A stretch of 34,768 nt of DNA, taken from assembly GCA_018712385.1 (NCBI GenBank), contig DVHC01000013.1, positions 1 through 34,768 of the forward strand, given 5' to 3'. Of the stretch, positions 17,364 through 25,311 are shown one piece after another (within the stretch, counting starts at the first letter, position 1; each line of letters begins with the position of its first letter). This DNA is from Candidatus Onthousia excrementipullorum (GTDB lineage Bacteria > Bacillota_I > Bacilli_A > RF39 > UBA660). The notes under the pieces are model-generated. The model saw nothing but the letters and a program-made list of their open reading frames with translations, was not told where the DNA came from and searched no databases. The translations under genes were made by a program, and so were the position numbers.

Positions 17364-17382
17364 GGGGCTGTCGAGAAATTAA
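17364..17382 (+). repeat. Left terminal inverted repeat of the IS1182 element
   Basis: GGGGCTGTCGAGAAATTAA matches the complement of 19116-19134 at all 19 positions. A fifth G lies just outside (17363). Confidence 0.85.
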
Positions 17383-19007
17383 TTAATTGATTTCTTGACA
17401 GTTTCTTTTTTTTGCTTTACATATGGAAAGGTCTCTTTGTGTAAATTATTTGGTGTATCCCAACAGTTGTCTTTAAATTTGCAATCATCAAAAGAATCAA
17501 GTAATCTTCTTATATTAACGCCTAAACACTCAAGCATCACTTCACAAGAAACATTTTTTAACCCACGTCTTCTTATTCTTTCATAATTCATATTGTTCTT
17601 AATTTGGCCAAATGTTCCTTCAACTTGAATACTTCTATTTATTCTTATCTCAATTCCTTTTGGACTCAATAGGTTATTTCTTGCCTGTTCTTTCAATAAC
17701 TCATAGTCAGGGTTTAATTCGACTTTTCTAAAGTTTTCATCTTTATTTTTTAAGTTTTTCTTACAAATATATGAATAGTTGCAGTTATTGCAACCTTCAA
17801 ATATATAGAGTTTTGTGTCTTTATTTCTTTGATGAGCAGAATTGGTTTTAAATGATATTTCTTTTCCAATATTAGTATTTAAACACATTATACCATCACC
17901 AAATGTATAAAAAAGTTGAGGCCTTTTACCACTAGATTCACCATTCCATTGTTGAAATTTCAAATAATTACCTATATTATGTTCCCTAAGATATTTATAA
18001 TTGGTATAAATACCATAACCAGAATCTCCAACTGCATTTTTTGGATAACTTCCATAATATTTATAATAATTATTGTATAAAGGTATAAGTGTATAATAAT
18101 CTGTTCTATCTTGATATACTCCGTACATTACAATTAATAGGTTAGACACTAATACCTGAACATTATATGCTGCATGGAAATCATGACTAAGTTTAGAATA
18201 ATAATCTTCTTTTAACATCATTGCAGTAGCATCTTTATCTGTTTTAAAATAAGAATTTCTATTATCTCCACAAATTTTTTCTTTTTCTTCATATTCAAGA
18301 AGCTTTATTAAATACTTATATGCTTGTTTATAATTTTTTATTTCTTTAGTAGTTCTAACTCCTTTACCACCTGGTAAATTATTAATATCTATATTATTTT
18401 TATATATATAATCTTTTAATATCAAATTAAATTTATCAGTCTTAATTAAATCTTTATTATTTGCTTCTTCAACATATCCCATTTCTCCCAATAAGCTTTT
18501 TATTTTTATATCTAGTTTTTGGTGGAATTTAGTAGGTTTCCAAACAAATTTATATTTATTTGCGTTGGCTTCAAATTTACTTCCATCAATATAAGCATCT
18601 TCTATAATTAAATTTAATTTTTTAATTATATGTTTAACAATAGTAGTAAATATTTCGTATTGATATGGAACTATATAATCATTAATAAAATTACCAAAAG
18701 TTGAATGGTCTGGTATATTACCATCCATAATATATAATACCCTAATATCAAAAAGGCATTTATCTTCTATATCTCTTAAAGATGCCTTAAACTTTGCAAA
18801 ACAATATACAATTGCAGCGAGTAGTTTATAAGGATCATAACCTTTTCGTCCTTTACACATACTTCTTTTTAACTTTACACTTTTTATTATTTTCCAAACA
18901 CCAGATTCTTCTAAAAAAATCAAAAATTTATCAATTTTCTCAAATTCCTCATTACATTTATCTGAGGGCACTAGAAAAATAGGCCTTTTTGTAGTAAAAT
19001 ACTCCAT
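17379..19007 (-). CDS. IS1182-family transposase
   Basis: A 542-residue DDE transposase. Near the start is the DUF772 domain (GRKGYDPYKLLAAIVYCFAK, SLRDIEDKC, PDHSTFGNF). The catalytic region shows EDAYIDGSKFEANANKYKFVW (first Asp), VGDSGYGIYTNYKYL (second), and IEIRINRSIQVEGTFGQIKNNM with the Glu. A Cys cluster (EGCNNCNYSYICKK) precedes the third motif, as in many IS1182 members. The ATG at 19007 has AAGGAG 9 nt upstream; an ATG at 19028 overlaps that SD and is rejected. Apparently intact, so the element may be active. Confidence 0.92.
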   Translation of the reverse strand: MEYFTTKRPIFLVPSDKCNEEFEKIDKFLIFLEESGVWKIIKSVKLKRSMCKGRKGYDPYKLLAAIVYCFAKFKASLRDIEDKCLFDIRVLYIMDGNIPDHSTFGNFINDYIVPYQYEIFTTIVKHIIKKLNLIIEDAYIDGSKFEANANKYKFVWKPTKFHQKLDIKIKSLLGEMGYVEEANNKDLIKTDKFNLILKDYIYKNNIDINNLPGGKGVRTTKEIKNYKQAYKYLIKLLEYEEKEKICGDNRNSYFKTDKDATAMMLKEDYYSKLSHDFHAAYNVQVLVSNLLIVMYGVYQDRTDYYTLIPLYNNYYKYYGSYPKNAVGDSGYGIYTNYKYLREHNIGNYLKFQQWNGESSGKRPQLFYTFGDGIMCLNTNIGKEISFKTNSAHQRNKDTKLYIFEGCNNCNYSYICKKNLKNKDENFRKVELNPDYELLKEQARNNLLSPKGIEIRINRSIQVEGTFGQIKNNMNYERIRRRGLKNVSCEVMLECLGVNIRRLLDSFDDCKFKDNCWDTPNNLHKETFPYVKQKKETVKKSIN

Positions 19008-19048
19008 GTGATACAACTCCTTAAGCAAGATTATTGTATCACAAAATG

Positions 19049-19115: not shown

Positions 19116-19134
19116 TTAATTTCTCGACAGCCCC
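19116..19134 (-). repeat. Right terminal inverted repeat of the IS1182 element, doubling as the end of truB
   Basis: Complement of 17364-17382. Read on the minus strand in the truB frame it gives G-L-S-R-N-stop. Confidence 0.85.
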
Positions 19135-20531
19135 TTTAACATTTTAAAGCATTTTAATTTATTATTAACATTCTGATAAATAGCCACTACTCTATTATTT
19201 CTCATAAATAGAACTTTATCTTTAATATTATAACTATTATCAATAACTGCCCCATTAACTATCCTTTTATAGTCCACACCATCTATTTCTTTTATTTCTA
19301 TATCTAGGGCATCACTAATAGTAATTAACTTACTATTTATAGTTACATCTTCTAAATCAACAGCATTATCTAATCTAAACTTACCTTGTCTCGTTCTTAT
19401 TAAACTACTCATAGTACATGGTATATCTAAAAACTCTCCCATATCTTTAATTAAACTTCTAATATAAGTTCCTTTAGATACAACACATCTAAACTTAAAA
19501 GAGTCTTCTTTATAATCTAAAAGTTCCAACTCTTTAATTATAACTTTTCTTTTAGGTAGTTCTACATCTTTATTACTTCTAGCATATTCATATAACTTCT
19601 TACCATTAACTTTAATAGCAGAGTACTTTGGTACTTCTTGAAGATATTCTTTAACAAACTCTTTAAATAAATTATCTAACATATCTTTAGATACTTTTTT
19701 ATCACTTGTCTTTACAATATTACCTTCTAAATCTAAAGTATCTGTTTCTACTCCTACTTTAACACTAGCGATATACTCTTTATCAGTACAGGTTAATAAT
19801 TCATTTATCTTTGTCGCCCTATTAATAGTAATTACAAGAAGCCCCTCAGCCATAGGATCAAGTGTCCCATTATGACCTATTTTCTTTGTATCAAAGACTT
19901 TCTCTAATTTATTAACAACATCTCTTGAAGTTATTCCCTTAGGTTTATTTACTAATAAAACGCCACTTTTATTATATAACTCATCATACTCTTCTAAAGT
20001 TAAATTATTATCTGTTATGATATTAGCAGTATTCTTCCCTACATATCTATAATGCCATGGCTCATAACTATAACCTGTTATATCATCTTTACCTTTAGGA
20101 TATCTAAGTATTAAACCATAATTAGGTAACAGTTCTATTATTTTCTCATATATTCTCTCTTCTTTAAATAACAAATCATTATCATAAATTAATTTATTAT
20201 TAATAACTAACCCTACATCTAAACAAAGCCCTGTATGATGTTCACTACTACCTAAAGGTGCAACATAACGTTCTACATAATCTTTACCATATTTATTAGT
20301 ATAATCATCTATTATCTTTTTTTGTTCTTCTAAAGTCCTTAATCCCCCTATTATATCTACAAAAATATTCTCTTTTTCTAAATCTTTCTTTAAATCAAAA
20401 TAAGCTTTTAAAGTCCTCTTTTCAAGTAAATATTCTTCATTTAAAGAATTAGTAATACTTTTATACTCTATATTAGAAAAATCTTCTTTATTATATGGCT
20501 TTTTCTTATTAACAACAATTTTATAATTCAT
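19116..20531 (-). CDS. truB: VanY-type D,D-carboxypeptidase fused to tRNA pseudouridine-55 synthase TruB
   Basis: One uninterrupted 471-residue frame carries two enzymes. Residues 1-180 are a peptidase M15B/VanY domain: SEHHTGLCLD (Zn ligands His98 and Asp105) and EPWHYRYVG (Glu157, His160), expected to remove the terminal D-Ala from peptidoglycan stem peptides. Residues about 187-471 are TruB: VNKPKGITSRDVV, catalytic GHNGTLDPMAEGLL (Asp225), KEYIASVKVGVETDT, and a PUA-like end. No signal peptide is visible, which is odd for a cell-wall enzyme. No ATG lies between the domains. The start at 20531 follows the rbfA stop by one base, with GAGGAA upstream. The last five residues and stop come from an IS1182 end. 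Confidence 0.9.
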   Translation of the reverse strand: MNYKIVVNKKKPYNKEDFSNIEYKSITNSLNEEYLLEKRTLKAYFDLKKDLEKENIFVDIIGGLRTLEEQKKIIDDYTNKYGKDYVERYVAPLGSSEHHTGLCLDVGLVINNKLIYDNDLLFKEERIYEKIIELLPNYGLILRYPKGKDDITGYSYEPWHYRYVGKNTANIITDNNLTLEEYDELYNKSGVLLVNKPKGITSRDVVNKLEKVFDTKKIGHNGTLDPMAEGLLVITINRATKINELLTCTDKEYIASVKVGVETDTLDLEGNIVKTSDKKVSKDMLDNLFKEFVKEYLQEVPKYSAIKVNGKKLYEYARSNKDVELPKRKVIIKELELLDYKEDSFKFRCVVSKGTYIRSLIKDMGEFLDIPCTMSSLIRTRQGKFRLDNAVDLEDVTINSKLITISDALDIEIKEIDGVDYKRIVNGAVIDNSYNIKDKVLFMRNNRVVAIYQNVNNKLKCFKMLKGLSRN

Positions 20532-20532
20532 C

Positions 20533-20871
20533 TTATTCCTCATTAATCTTATCTATAATCTTATCAATATGTTCTCCATAAGAAATAGACTCATCATATA
20601 AAAACTTTAAAAGAGGAATATGTCTTATCTCTATTCTTTTAGCAAGTTCTCCTCTTATAAAACTACTAGCATTATTTAAAGCTTTTAAAGTCTCCTCTTT
20701 TTTTTCTTGCTCTAAAACAGTAACATATATCTTACAATAACTTAAGTCATTAGAAGTATCACAATCAGTAACAGTTACAAATTTTATATTCTCATCCTTC
20801 ACTTCTAACATTAATATTTTACTAACTTCTTCCATAATCATATGATTAATTCTTTCTATTTTAATATTCAT
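20533..20871 (-). CDS. rbfA: Ribosome-binding factor A
   Basis: A 112-residue 30S-maturation factor of the KH-like fold that helps process 16S rRNA 5' ends. Family pattern: N-terminal RINHMIMEEVSKIL, FVTVTDCDTSNDLSYCKIYVTVL, and C-terminal RIEIRHIPLLKFLYDESISYGEHIDKII. The ATG at 20871 has AAAGGAC 8 nt upstream; a TTG at 20889 would overlap the SD and is rejected. It is one base from the vanY-truB start, so they are coupled. In most Firmicutes rbfA follows infB; here a plus-strand gene separates them. Confidence 0.93.
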   Translation of the reverse strand: MNIKIERINHMIMEEVSKILMLEVKDENIKFVTVTDCDTSNDLSYCKIYVTVLEQEKKEETLKALNNASSFIRGELAKRIEIRHIPLLKFLYDESISYGEHIDKIIDKINEE

Positions 20872-20893
20872 TAAAATCAGTCCTTTCAAAATA

Positions 20894-20926
20894 AGTATAG
20901 CATATTTTTATATTTTAATATATAAT
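20894..20926. promoter_or_regulatory. Divergent promoters for rbfA and the 735-residue gene
   Basis: Minus strand: extended -10 TGC-TATACT (20902-20894), 23 nt upstream of the rbfA ATG. Plus strand: TATAAT (20921-20926) before the GAGGAGG site at 20937-20943. Clear -35 boxes are not seen for either. Confidence 0.5.
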
Positions 20927-20950
20927 AAGCGATGTTGAGGAGGAAATAAT

Positions 20951-23158
20951 ATGTCAAAGAATTCTGAATTAGTAAAAGAGTTAAGAAATGGAAATAATAA
21001 TAGAGATGCTTTTTTTAAGGAAAAAATTAAAGAAGAATTAGAAAAATCAGGTATTAAAGGTGATGAAGTTACTATTAATGATATTTTTAATAAAGCTTTA
21101 GATACATACACAGATGATATTAAAATACCATTTTTATTTCATATTAAAGCCATTATAAAAAATAAAGATAAAAATACTGAAACAGGAGATTTAAATAATC
21201 TTCAATACAAAGTTATTAAATTATACTTAACTAAAGAAAATGACAAATATCTATCTAAAATAGAAATTGCTACTAATCTCTCTATAAAAATTGATGAAGT
21301 TATAAATATTATAAAATCTCTTAATAATAACAATAATTTAGATAAAGTATTTCCTAATTATAAAGAAATGCTTAAAGATAGAAATGACTACTTTAAGAAA
21401 AAAGCAATTGTTATATCTGAAAAGCAAATAATTTTATTAGTAGAATACTGTGGTGGTCTAAGGAAAGAGATGGATTTTAAAGCCCTTGCAAAGAAGTATG
21501 ATAAAACTACATTTGAGATTAAAAATGAATTAAATAATATCTTTAAACTATTAAAGACAGGAAATAATTTAACTATTTTATTAGATAGATATCCTAATAT
21601 TAAGAATGCTCTTATAAGAAAAAGTAAAGTATTTAATATTTCCTTAGATATTAAAGAAGATATAGCAGTTAAACATATTGTAACAAGTGATTTTAAAAGG
21701 AAAGCACATCTTAATAAGGATGATATTACAATGCTAAAATTATTAAGTAGTTATATTAAAAATGAACTTACCACAGAAAAAATAAAAGAAGCTGGTTTTG
21801 ATAGTGTAGCAAGTTTTGTTGATAAGAGAAATAGATTTTTTAGTAAACTTAGAACTAATGAAAGATTCTTTGATACTGTTAATGAATTATATCCTGATTT
21901 GGATATTGAAGCTTTAATAGATATGCCTAGACTAACCTATTATGAATTTAAAACTTTAGCACTTATAGATGAATACTCTTATAAAAAGGTAAGTGAAAAT
22001 GAGAAATTAATTGAACAAGAGAAATTTAAAAATACTAAGTCTTTTAAAAAAATATTAAATACTGCTGTTGATAAGTTAAATGAAAGTAAATATCTATTAG
22101 ATAAAGTATCTTTAATTCTTACTAATTTAAATGATTTAGAGTTAGTTGATAATAAAAAGAAAAAAGATGATTTAAGTCTTTCTTTAGTAGAAATAAAAAT
22201 ATTAGAAGCTTTAAATGACAATCCAGAATTAACTAATCGAGAGCTTGGTACTATAGCAGGATTTAAAAGTGAAGCTGGTTTTGTTAATAAAAAATATGAA
22301 TTATTAACTAGAATTAGCAATAATAAAATATTGGAATTAAAAGTTAAGAGGAAATATCCTAATATTGTATTAAAAAAGGAAAAGAGAAAAACTAAACTGA
22401 GTGATAAAAATATAGAATTACTTACTCTATTAGAAAAAAAGCTTTCTGATAAGGAAATGGCAGATACTTTAGAATTAGCGAATGAAAAGAGTTATTATAC
22501 TGTTAAGAGAATATTATTTAAACAATTAGAAGAAAATGAATCTCTTAAAAGAGATGCTTTAAGAAAGTTCCCTGACCTAATCTTAGATGATTATATTAAG
22601 AATCTTGCTATTAGATTTACAGAAAATGAAATAGTCTTTTTACAAGAGTTTTGTTTAATAGAAGATAATAATCTTATTTATCAAAGTGAAGAAGAAATCC
22701 TAAAGAAGCTTAACTTACAACCTAAGATGATAGAATTTGTTAAAACTACTTCTACTATTAAAGTTGTTAAAAATATGATTGTAGGTACTAATTTAGATGA
22801 ATTATTATGGTCTAATTTTACTGATGAGTTTATTACTAGGGATAGTTTTAATAGTGATAATAGTATTTCTGTTAATAATTTAGAGTTTAAAGAACAAATG
22901 AGTGATGATATATTAGAAGGTATCAAAAGACTTGAAGAGTCTATCTTTGGAGACTTTGTAGAGCAATGTACTTTAAAAGAAAAATTAGTTCTTGCTCTTA
23001 GATTAGGTTATTTTGATAAAAGATTTTTTACTAGTAGTGAAGTTGCTATGATTACAAAAATGGAAGAGATTAAAGTTATATCTCTAACTAAAAAGTGTTT
23101 AAAGATGTCTAGAAATAATTATATAGATGAAAAACAGAAGCAGAAGATTTTAATTTAG
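20951..23158 (+). CDS. Unrecognised 735-residue protein of tandem HTH-like repeats with sigma-factor-like ends
   Basis: No family recognised. The N-terminus (1-75) resembles the start of sigma-70-type proteins (ELVKELRNGNNNRDAFF, then ALDTYTDDIKIPFLFHIKAIIKN). Six or seven units of about 60-80 residues follow (near 84-135, 154-216, 253-317, 328-396, 407-472, 483-543, 555-615). Most have a helix-turn-helix-like centre (LTNRELGTIAGFKSEAGFV; LSDKEMADTLELANEKSYY) and close with Y/F-P-N/D-hydrophobic (YPNI, YPDL, FPDL). The C-terminus (664-724) resembles sigma region 4 (LKEKLVLALRLGYF...TSSEVAMITKMEEIKVI). Lys-rich, cytoplasmic, no membrane segment. A DNA-binding regulator is inferred. It lies antisense within the infB-rbfA block, convergent with infB. 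Confidence 0.8.
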   Translation: MSKNSELVKELRNGNNNRDAFFKEKIKEELEKSGIKGDEVTINDIFNKALDTYTDDIKIPFLFHIKAIIKNKDKNTETGDLNNLQYKVIKLYLTKENDKYLSKIEIATNLSIKIDEVINIIKSLNNNNNLDKVFPNYKEMLKDRNDYFKKKAIVISEKQIILLVEYCGGLRKEMDFKALAKKYDKTTFEIKNELNNIFKLLKTGNNLTILLDRYPNIKNALIRKSKVFNISLDIKEDIAVKHIVTSDFKRKAHLNKDDITMLKLLSSYIKNELTTEKIKEAGFDSVASFVDKRNRFFSKLRTNERFFDTVNELYPDLDIEALIDMPRLTYYEFKTLALIDEYSYKKVSENEKLIEQEKFKNTKSFKKILNTAVDKLNESKYLLDKVSLILTNLNDLELVDNKKKKDDLSLSLVEIKILEALNDNPELTNRELGTIAGFKSEAGFVNKKYELLTRISNNKILELKVKRKYPNIVLKKEKRKTKLSDKNIELLTLLEKKLSDKEMADTLELANEKSYYTVKRILFKQLEENESLKRDALRKFPDLILDDYIKNLAIRFTENEIVFLQEFCLIEDNNLIYQSEEEILKKLNLQPKMIEFVKTTSTIKVVKNMIVGTNLDELLWSNFTDEFITRDSFNSDNSISVNNLEFKEQMSDDILEGIKRLEESIFGDFVEQCTLKEKLVLALRLGYFDKRFFTSSEVAMITKMEEIKVISLTKKCLKMSRNNYIDEKQKQKILI

Positions 23159-23162
23159 TAAA

Positions 23163-23189
23163 AAAAAGTAGGGATCTACCCTACTTTTT
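23163..23189. terminator. Bidirectional terminator between the 735-residue gene and infB
   Basis: Perfect 11-bp stem AAAAAGTAGGG (23163-23173) / CCCTACTTTTT (23179-23189) with a 5-nt loop. It overlaps the infB stop codon. Confidence 0.85.
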
Positions 23190-25311
23190 ATCTTTCTACT
23201 TCTACAAGTTCATATACTTCGATAATATCTCCTTCTTTATAATCTTGGAAATTATCTAAAGTAAGTCCACAATCATGATCTTTAGACATTTCTTTAACTT
23301 GGTCTTTTTCATGTTGAAGTGACTTTATAGAGCCATTATAAATTACTATACTATCTCTTACTACTCTAGCTTTATCATTATTTTTAATAGTACCAGAAGT
23401 TACATGACAACCTGCAATCATACCAACTTTAGAAAATTTAAATAATTGACGTATTTCAGCCGTACCAGTAACTTTTTCTTCATAAATTGGCTCTAACATA
23501 CCTTTCATAGCTTTTTCCATATCTTCAACAACTTTATATATAATATCGTATGTTCTAATCTCGATACCATATTCTTTTGCCATATCTTGAACTTTATTAC
23601 TTCCTCTAACATTAAAGCCAATTACTATAGCATTAGAAGCCCCTGCAAGAACAATATCACTTTCTGTAATACCACCAACTGCACCACGAATAATATTTAT
23701 TTTAACGCCTTCTACGTCAATCTTTTCTAAAGATGACCTAACAGCTTCTAAACTACCATTAGTATCTGTTTTTAATATAACATTTATCTCTTTTAAACCT
23801 TCATTAATTTTTCCAAATAACTCTTCTAAACTCATACCAGTTCTATTAGTGTCAGCTTGTTTTTCTCTTAAAGCTCTATCACTTGCTATTTGTTTAGCTT
23901 GTTTTTCCGTCTCAAAAGCCATAAATTTATCTCCAGCACTTGGAACACTAGATAGTCCTGTTATCTCTACTGGCATAGATGGAGGAGCAGTGGTTATGTT
24001 TCTTCCTAAATCATCTTTAAGAGTTCTAACTTTACCAAAAGCTGTTCCTACAACAATAGGATCACCTAATCTTAAAGTACCATTTTGGATTAACAAAGTT
24101 GCAACTGCTCCTACATGTTTATCCATTTTACTTTCAAGAACAGCCCCAGTTGCATAACGATTAGGATTAGCTTTTAATTCACTCATCTCAGCGATTAATA
24201 AAATATTTTCAAGTAGTTCATCAACACCTTCTCCAGTTTTAGCAGAAATTTTAGTAACAATCGTATCTCCACCCCACTCCTCTGGAGTAAGTCCTGCTTG
24301 GGCTAAACCAGTCATTACCCTATCTACATTAGCTTCAGGTTTATCTATTTTATTGATACAAACAATGATAGGAACTTTAGCAGCTTTAGCATGGTCAATT
24401 GCTTCCTTAGTCTGAGGCATAACTCCATCATCTGCTGCTACGATAATGATAACTATATCAGTAACACTAGCTCCTCTTGCTCTCATCTCCGTAAAAGCAG
24501 CATGTCCTGGTGTATCGATAAAGGTTATCTTCTTACCTTTACATTCCACTTGATATGCTCCAATTTCTTGAGTAATACCACCAGCTTCTCCACCTGCTAC
24601 ATTACTTTCTCTAATGTAATCTAAAAGTGTTGTCTTACCATGATCAACATGTCCCATAATAGTAACAACAGGAGGACGTTCTACTAAGTCTTCTTCCTTA
24701 TCTTCAATCTCATAATTTTCAAAATTAGAAATATCTGCCGTCTCTTCTTTTTTTACTGTTTTATTATAATCTAAGGCAAGTACTTCTACACTATCAAAAC
24801 TAAGAGAATTGTTTAAGGTTGCCATAATACCTAGCCCCATTAATTTCTTAATAATTTCCCCTGTAGAAACATCTAAAAGATCTGCAAGTTCTTTAACAGT
24901 CATACCTTCTTTATATAGTAAAACATTCTCATCTACTACTTGTTCATTACTTTGTAATTTCTCTTTATGTTTATAGATTTTCTTTCTTTCTTGTCTAAAA
25001 TTACTCTTATCTTTATCTTGCTTCTTAGCTTTCTTTACTTTACTTGTCTTAATCTCGTGGTCATTTGTAAGATTAGATTCATAAGCAATTTGTTCAGCTT
25101 TCTCATCTAAAGAGAAGTCTTTAATCATCTCTTCATCTGGAGTATCTTCTACATAATCTTCTTCATCTTGAAAAGAATTATCTAGAAGGATAATCTCATC
25201 ATCACTAAGAAATCTATCTAAATCACTTGTATCCATAGAAAGACTTTCCATATGTTTAACTATATCTTCAACACTTCTATTAACATCTTCTGCATATTCT
25301 CTTATTGTCAT
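23188..25311 (-). CDS. infB: Translation initiation factor IF-2
   Basis: A 707-residue GTPase that places fMet-tRNA on the ribosome. Short N-terminal region with two IF2_N-like modules (start and about 130-185: [22 protein letters not shown]), a charged linker, then the G domain: GHVDHGKTT (G1, 220-228), [16 protein letters not shown] (G3), NKIDKP (G4), [12 protein letters not shown] (G5), followed by IF2 domains II-IV ([23 protein letters not shown]). It begins 9 bp after ylxR in the usual cluster order. Full length for a small Gram-positive IF-2. Confidence 0.97.

Follow-up and report, generated by a model that had tools for sequence, protein, structure and literature searches.

We examined a 34,768-nucleotide stretch of a Candidatus Onthousia excrementipullorum contig (DVHC01000013.1; hereafter the window), in which a 735-codon open reading frame lies between infB and rbfA, on the strand opposite to both (Table 1). 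An earlier note made from the sequence had placed such a frame inside the infB-rbfA block, and this holds: the frame is present, its two neighbours infB and rbfA run on the minus strand, seven relatives were found, and the probability of 735 open codons arising by chance, given this stop frequency and composition, is ~2e-28. The order infB, reversed 735-aa gene, rbfA and vanY-truB recurs wherever the contigs of the relatives are long enough. Between the stops of the 735-aa gene and infB lies a hairpin of -13.8 kcal/mol (z -3.3); the terminator proposed at this side is thus real, and its symmetry makes it likely to be bidirectional. At the other side, back-to-back -10 boxes in the 80 bp toward rbfA are kept throughout the genus and more loosely in other genera, whereas a mechanical promoter scan of the divergent region performed no better than shuffled sequence, so that the divergent promoters described earlier are supported by conservation in relatives but not by the scan. 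A possible inverted repeat is found between the two boxes.

Further along the minus strand, at 19116-20543, a VanY-type D,D-carboxypeptidase is fused in frame to TruB (Pfam VanY 4.6e-29, TruB_N 2.5e-50). The fusion has the same size throughout the genus, whereas L045, L080 and L082 have a frame of 280-289 aa that matches the TruB part alone. In L007 the VanY half is strongly diverged and the TruB half is not (20050-20450). Immediately downstream of vanY-truB there is a DDE transposase gene (17379-19028, minus strand; Pfam DDE_Tnp_1_6), with no corresponding frame at the equivalent place in the mapped relatives.

Table 1. Features of the 735-aa gene, its protein and its flanks; positions are those of the window.
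Feature	Position	Strand	Basis or remark
Sigma-derived multi-HTH protein gene	20951..23158	+	735 aa; ORF, relatives, constraint
Degraded sigma region 2, aa 1-79	20951..21187	+	lacks WW pair and QEG motif
Unit A, sigma region 3-like, aa 80-152	21188..21406	+	profile alignment, model
Unit B, sigma region 4-like, aa 153-238	21407..21664	+	Z 6.9, rmsd 1.6 to T. aquaticus sigma4
HTH-like unit C, aa 252-325	21704..21925	+	whole-model helices
HTH-like unit D, aa 326-398	21926..22144	+	whole-model helices
HTH unit E, aa 406-478	22166..22384	+	modelled separately, structure matches
HTH unit F, aa 479-548	22385..22594	+	modelled separately, structure matches
HTH-like unit G, acidic, aa 553-640	22607..22870	+	whole-model helices
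Unit H, sigma region 4 fold, aa 648-735	22892..23155	+	C..KxxLALRLGYF block; altered recognition helix
TATAAT, -10 box of 735-aa gene	20921..20926	+	position conserved in relatives
TATGCTATACT, extended -10 type box facing rbfA	20894..20904	-	conserved in relatives
GAGGAGG ribosome-binding site of 735-aa gene	20937..20943	+	
Terminator hairpin, 735-aa gene / infB (convergent)	23163..23189		symmetric, likely bidirectional
rbfA, divergent neighbour, separated from infB	20533..20889	-	
infB, convergent neighbour	23188..25311	-	

Sigma-70 ancestry and the HTH units

We found that the 735-aa protein descends from an RpoD-type sigma factor. A profile of the N-terminal module, built from 12 sequences, retrieves the RpoD proteins of sister genomes, colinear from region 2.2 across region 3 to region 4 (hmmsearch E 2.7e-7), and aligns with an RpoD profile over 179 columns (hhalign E 1.3e-6). 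One of these proteins (L084) is RpoD-type by Pfam, and the remaining matches of the profile among 704 ORFs were mostly sigma factors or sigma-like proteins. The C-terminal profile likewise matches RpoD region 4 (E 8.9e-5 in profile search, 3.3e-5 in hhalign), as well as the extra C-terminal domain of elongated sigma factors in sister genomes (E ~1e-8). The HMM-HMM comparison of both ends with sigma regions therefore leads to RpoD, and the sigma derivation that the earlier note had raised is borne out. In the predicted structure, residues 662-723 superpose on domain 4 of S. aureus sigma-A (Z 8.1, rmsd 2.3 over 62 residues), confirming a region 4-like C-terminus, and residues 153-204 on T. aquaticus sigma region 4. 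Residues 1-238 align along whole sigma-A chains (Z ~6.9, with an rmsd near 19 because of the domain arrangement); the N-terminus, previously read as the start of a sigma-70 factor, is sigma-like, but comprises a whole degraded sigma2-sigma3-sigma4 module. Foldseek with the whole model gave no match at E < 0.001, its top ranks being mostly sigma subunits, and VIA-align resolved the domains separately. The window protein has no match to Sigma70_r2, r3 or r4 at the Pfam gathering score, and a Sigma70_r4 match at E <= 1 was obtained in four of 12 C-termini (best 7.5e-6).

In sigma factors, the WW, QEG and RERIRQ motifs serve promoter melting, core binding and -35 reading, respectively. The WW pair of region 2.3-2.4 (F-S-T-Y-A-x-W-W) and the QEG motif of region 2.2 (D-L-I-Q-E-G) are both absent in 12 of 12 aligned members, while in every aligned member unit H has a sequence of the EEIKVISL type in place of the RERIRQ of region 4.2 (R-E-R-I-R-Q), with the fold kept. 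Since these motifs are missing, the protein, although it derives from a sigma factor, has probably ceased to be one. The best-conserved block of the family, C..KxxLALRLGYF, lies in unit H. A working alternative sigma factor, bound to core at promoters of its own and using the additional modules to lengthen promoter contact, would agree with the colinear RpoD homology over regions 2.2-3-4 and with the true sigma factors of sister genomes that carry a related extra C-terminal domain; nevertheless, the two motifs lost in every aligned member, the replaced RERIRQ and the lack of a Pfam sigma match in the window protein make it improbable.

Between the sigma-like ends, the AlphaFold model of the whole protein (mean pLDDT 78.7, pTM 0.33, so that the domains are usable and their relative arrangement is not) contains five units, C-G, giving eight HTH-like units A-H after the degraded sigma2. 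The repeats reported earlier are real, although slightly more numerous than the six or seven that had been counted. Their described YPNI/YPDL/FPDL endings recur as FPNY134, YPNI214, YPDL314, YPNI469 and FPDL540. Upon separate prediction, units E-F reached pLDDT 89.3 and pTM 0.75, with helices at 9-20, 26-32, 38-54 and 56-65 that then repeat, and their top structural matches are the HTH domains of Lrp (Z 6.4), DosR (Z 6.0-6.1) and MarR; on DosR, which is of the LuxR type, 43 residues superpose at rmsd 1.1 with 35% identity. Scores of Z 5-6.4 are below 8 and thus indicate the fold class only, not kinship. The predicted structure accordingly shows an HTH fold in E-F, as had been suspected of the repeat cores, and yielded no clear match to an unrelated family, whereas the HTH-like call for C, D and G is based on the helices of the whole model. 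As C, F and G have an acidic or neutral character, some of the units may not bind DNA.

Relatives, junction survey and signs of allele exchange

The seven relatives, obtained by searching the contigs of other assemblies, share 43-90% identity with the window protein; all adjoin rbfA where the contig shows rbfA and infB where the contig reaches infB. Across the wider set rbfA adjoins most relatives but is not seen beside L044, L068 or L077, the last being the second copy in G397; both G397 and G398 carry the family gene in two copies. At least five genera, all from a single bacterial family, contain relatives (g1, g5, g18, g41 and g68), with the N-terminal profile matching at E < 1e-30 in 12 of 386 genomes of that family and in more of the order sample. 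In a class-wide sample of 395 genomes there was none outside the family except one frame with in-frame stops (G493), which was discarded. The number of units varies among relatives: lengths range from 673 to 1601 aa, the highest count is found in L041, with 15 units of 71-82 aa in tandem, L079b has four near-identical tandem units, and L078 has two copies of the C-terminal module. Sequence searches of Pfam, NCBIfam, PHROGs, PADLOC and PDB gave no family for the 735-aa protein; the PHROG and Pfam matches of long relatives are isolated HTH stretches and are taken at fold level only. A viral origin was also considered and dropped, as phages, plasmids and viral contigs held no relative at the protein level, where distant relatives could escape.

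We next surveyed the infB-rbfA junction in approximately one genome per genus of the family, with distances taken by hand from two tables, in 110 genomes that have both genes on one contig at a measurable distance. The two genes are at most 200 bp apart in 91 of these, confirming that the cluster is normally contiguous. Eight gaps exceed 1 kb, and three of them contain the 735-aa gene family. The other five, together with five medium gaps, contain no ORF matching the family profiles, which led us to reject unrecognised divergent copies in these ten genomes; their ORFs mostly share the strand of infB. Two genomes of the window's own genus without a family match carry three other ORFs in the gap: in L099 (6382-11044) these are an SbcD-like gene, an SbcC-like gene (both by Pfam) and a 311-aa ORF without family, and in L100 (7044-10734) ORFs equal to them in size, the only property compared. 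In L078 (5918-8526), an AccI-type restriction endonuclease and an Eco57I-type methyltransferase lie between the family gene and infB. The constant position beside rbfA in most relatives would suit a translation-linked protein that serves ribosome assembly through modules binding RNA or protein, which would account for the infB/rbfA neighbourhood; we consider this very unlikely, given the sigma/HTH ancestry, the fact that most genera and two members of its own genus lack the gene, and the unrelated genes that other lineages also have at the junction.

Among the 15 units of L041, residue entropy is highest at the recognition helix (1.89 bits versus 0.73 elsewhere), the start of this helix ranks first in variability among 56 ten-residue windows of the unit, and pN/pS is 1.0-1.2 there versus 0.42 elsewhere, the pattern expected if every module reads different DNA. 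Between alleles of the window's own lineage, recognition helices are no more variable than the rest, and divergence is fastest in the middle units taken together; that comparison does not support the recognition helices as the most variable part. All 19 members examined have a pI of 7.5-9.6, and the net charge is +112 in L041 versus +11 in the window protein. Basic chains of repeated modules, up to 1601 aa long, could befit a protein that organises the nucleoid or has a structural role, coating DNA with no strong preference for sequence, yet the modest charge of the window protein and the recognition-helix variation of L041, which speaks for sequence reading, make this very unlikely.

The 735-aa gene evolves with a dN/dS of 0.27-0.7, versus ~0.09 for infB and nusA, and its product is therefore constrained. 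Between the window and L007, dS is 0.07 in infB, 0.04 in ylxR, 0.14 in nusA and 0.89 in the 735-aa gene, while against L001 and L004 it is 0.18 in the 735-aa gene, ~0.5 in infB and 0.5-0.7 in rbfA. In the latter pairs the last three units have a pS of 0.00-0.02, divergence in the first units is ordinary (pS 0.35-0.5), and the 3' end of infB is nearly identical (94-97% at the DNA level). Such tracts are what homologous recombination leaves, and we regard them as signs of alleles of the 735-aa gene having been swapped between genomes. Over the genera, the gene tree and the rbfA tree are broadly congruent, and the gene thus looks old and resident, not newly arrived; its median end branch is about nine times longer (0.76 vs 0.083).

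A candidate regulator and its alternatives

Taken as a whole, we favour, with confidence only a little above even, a transcription regulator that binds DNA at multiple sites and is composed of sigma modules; the earlier note had offered a large regulator of this kind beside a sigma-derived protein, the ancestry being shown and the regulatory role putative. A duplicated RpoD-type sigma factor would have shed the residues for promoter melting and core binding while acquiring further copies of its own region 4-like HTH modules, and the internal modules may contact one segment after another of a long DNA site, making it a chromosomal multi-site regulator. Unit H, without the residues that read the -35 element and with its fold and a strongly conserved face kept, may dock on RNA polymerase, for example at the beta flap; conservation points to this putative sigma4 docking face. 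The promoter region is shared divergently with rbfA-truB, and the gene may control itself and that operon, whose regulation is plausible because of the divergent layout. Module number and sequence change fast, and alleles would be exchanged between strains by recombination in the conserved infB/rbfA flanks. For this protein we infer DNA binding, RNA polymerase docking and regulation of rbfA. Allele exchange and fast evolution, however, exceed the needs of an ordinary regulator and count against this reading.

Its chief rival is a guard against foreign DNA, in which the HTH chain would recognise phage or mobile DNA and silence or mark it, an arms race driving its diversity as in restriction specificity genes. 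The swapping of alleles at one location whose flanks are conserved, the dN/dS several-fold above that of infB and nusA, and the presence in the same gap of the AccI restriction-modification pair and of SbcC/SbcD-like genes replacing the gene are all consistent with it. We nonetheless regard it as unlikely, since no known defence family in PADLOC is matched, the protein has no effector domain, and neighbours of defence type occur in only three genomes, most copies having ordinary housekeeping neighbours. About equally tentative is a sigma-derived, TALE-like reader, that is, a fast-changing HTH chain swapped between strains, whose long DNA target would be strain-specific and would serve gene control or foreign-DNA recognition.

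The ancestry is of a known kind, sigma-70, and the architecture is absent from Pfam, NCBIfam and PHROGs. Sigma factors can split or shrink, but we know of none that has turned into a long chain of HTH modules, and the open-access full-text literature yielded no description of a sigma-derived HTH chain. Compared with RpoD and primary sigma-70 (PF04542, PF04539, PF04545), the protein keeps regions 2.2, 3 and 4 colinear in residues 1-238 and a second region-4 fold near its end, and differs in the three missing motifs, the five additional units, its fast evolution and its patchy distribution. Units E and F share their fold with LuxR/GerE-type and Lrp-type HTH domains, in which a single HTH is fused to sensor or effector domains rather than chained. 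TALE and PPR proteins are modular repeat readers of DNA or RNA; the likeness to them is by analogy, in tandem similar units and, for L041 only, in variation at presumed reading positions, whereas the fold is different and unrelated and no code is known. If the modules do read DNA successively, the 15-unit L041 would be a natural experiment on long-site recognition by HTH arrays. Allele swapping at a fixed spot within an essential operon is also unusual for a transcription regulator.

The elongated sigma factors of the family (L057, 758 aa; L054, 770 aa; L088, 710 aa) resemble the 735-aa protein in a C-terminal region-4-like domain (its residues 650-726), and differ in their intact regions 2, 3 and 4 (Pfam, in L088, L089 and L090) and in their gene contexts. 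More broadly, sigma-70 type factors of 480-810 aa with added C-terminal HTH-like domains are found in several genera of the same family (L054:8349-10661, L057:5675-7951, L088:1166-3298, L090:1200-3632, L046:7989-9482 and L061:114-1571), the last domain being related to unit H in most. In L096 (236-6001), three consecutive sigma-like genes encode 381, 595 and >923 aa, and proteins of this type are rarely as long as the second and third. Additionally, the 1.5 Mb genome G000 has five sigma-70 region-2 proteins (L070-L074; open frames of 367, 258, 237, 230 and 225 aa), which, judged by size alone, would fit RpoD and sporulation-type sigma factors.
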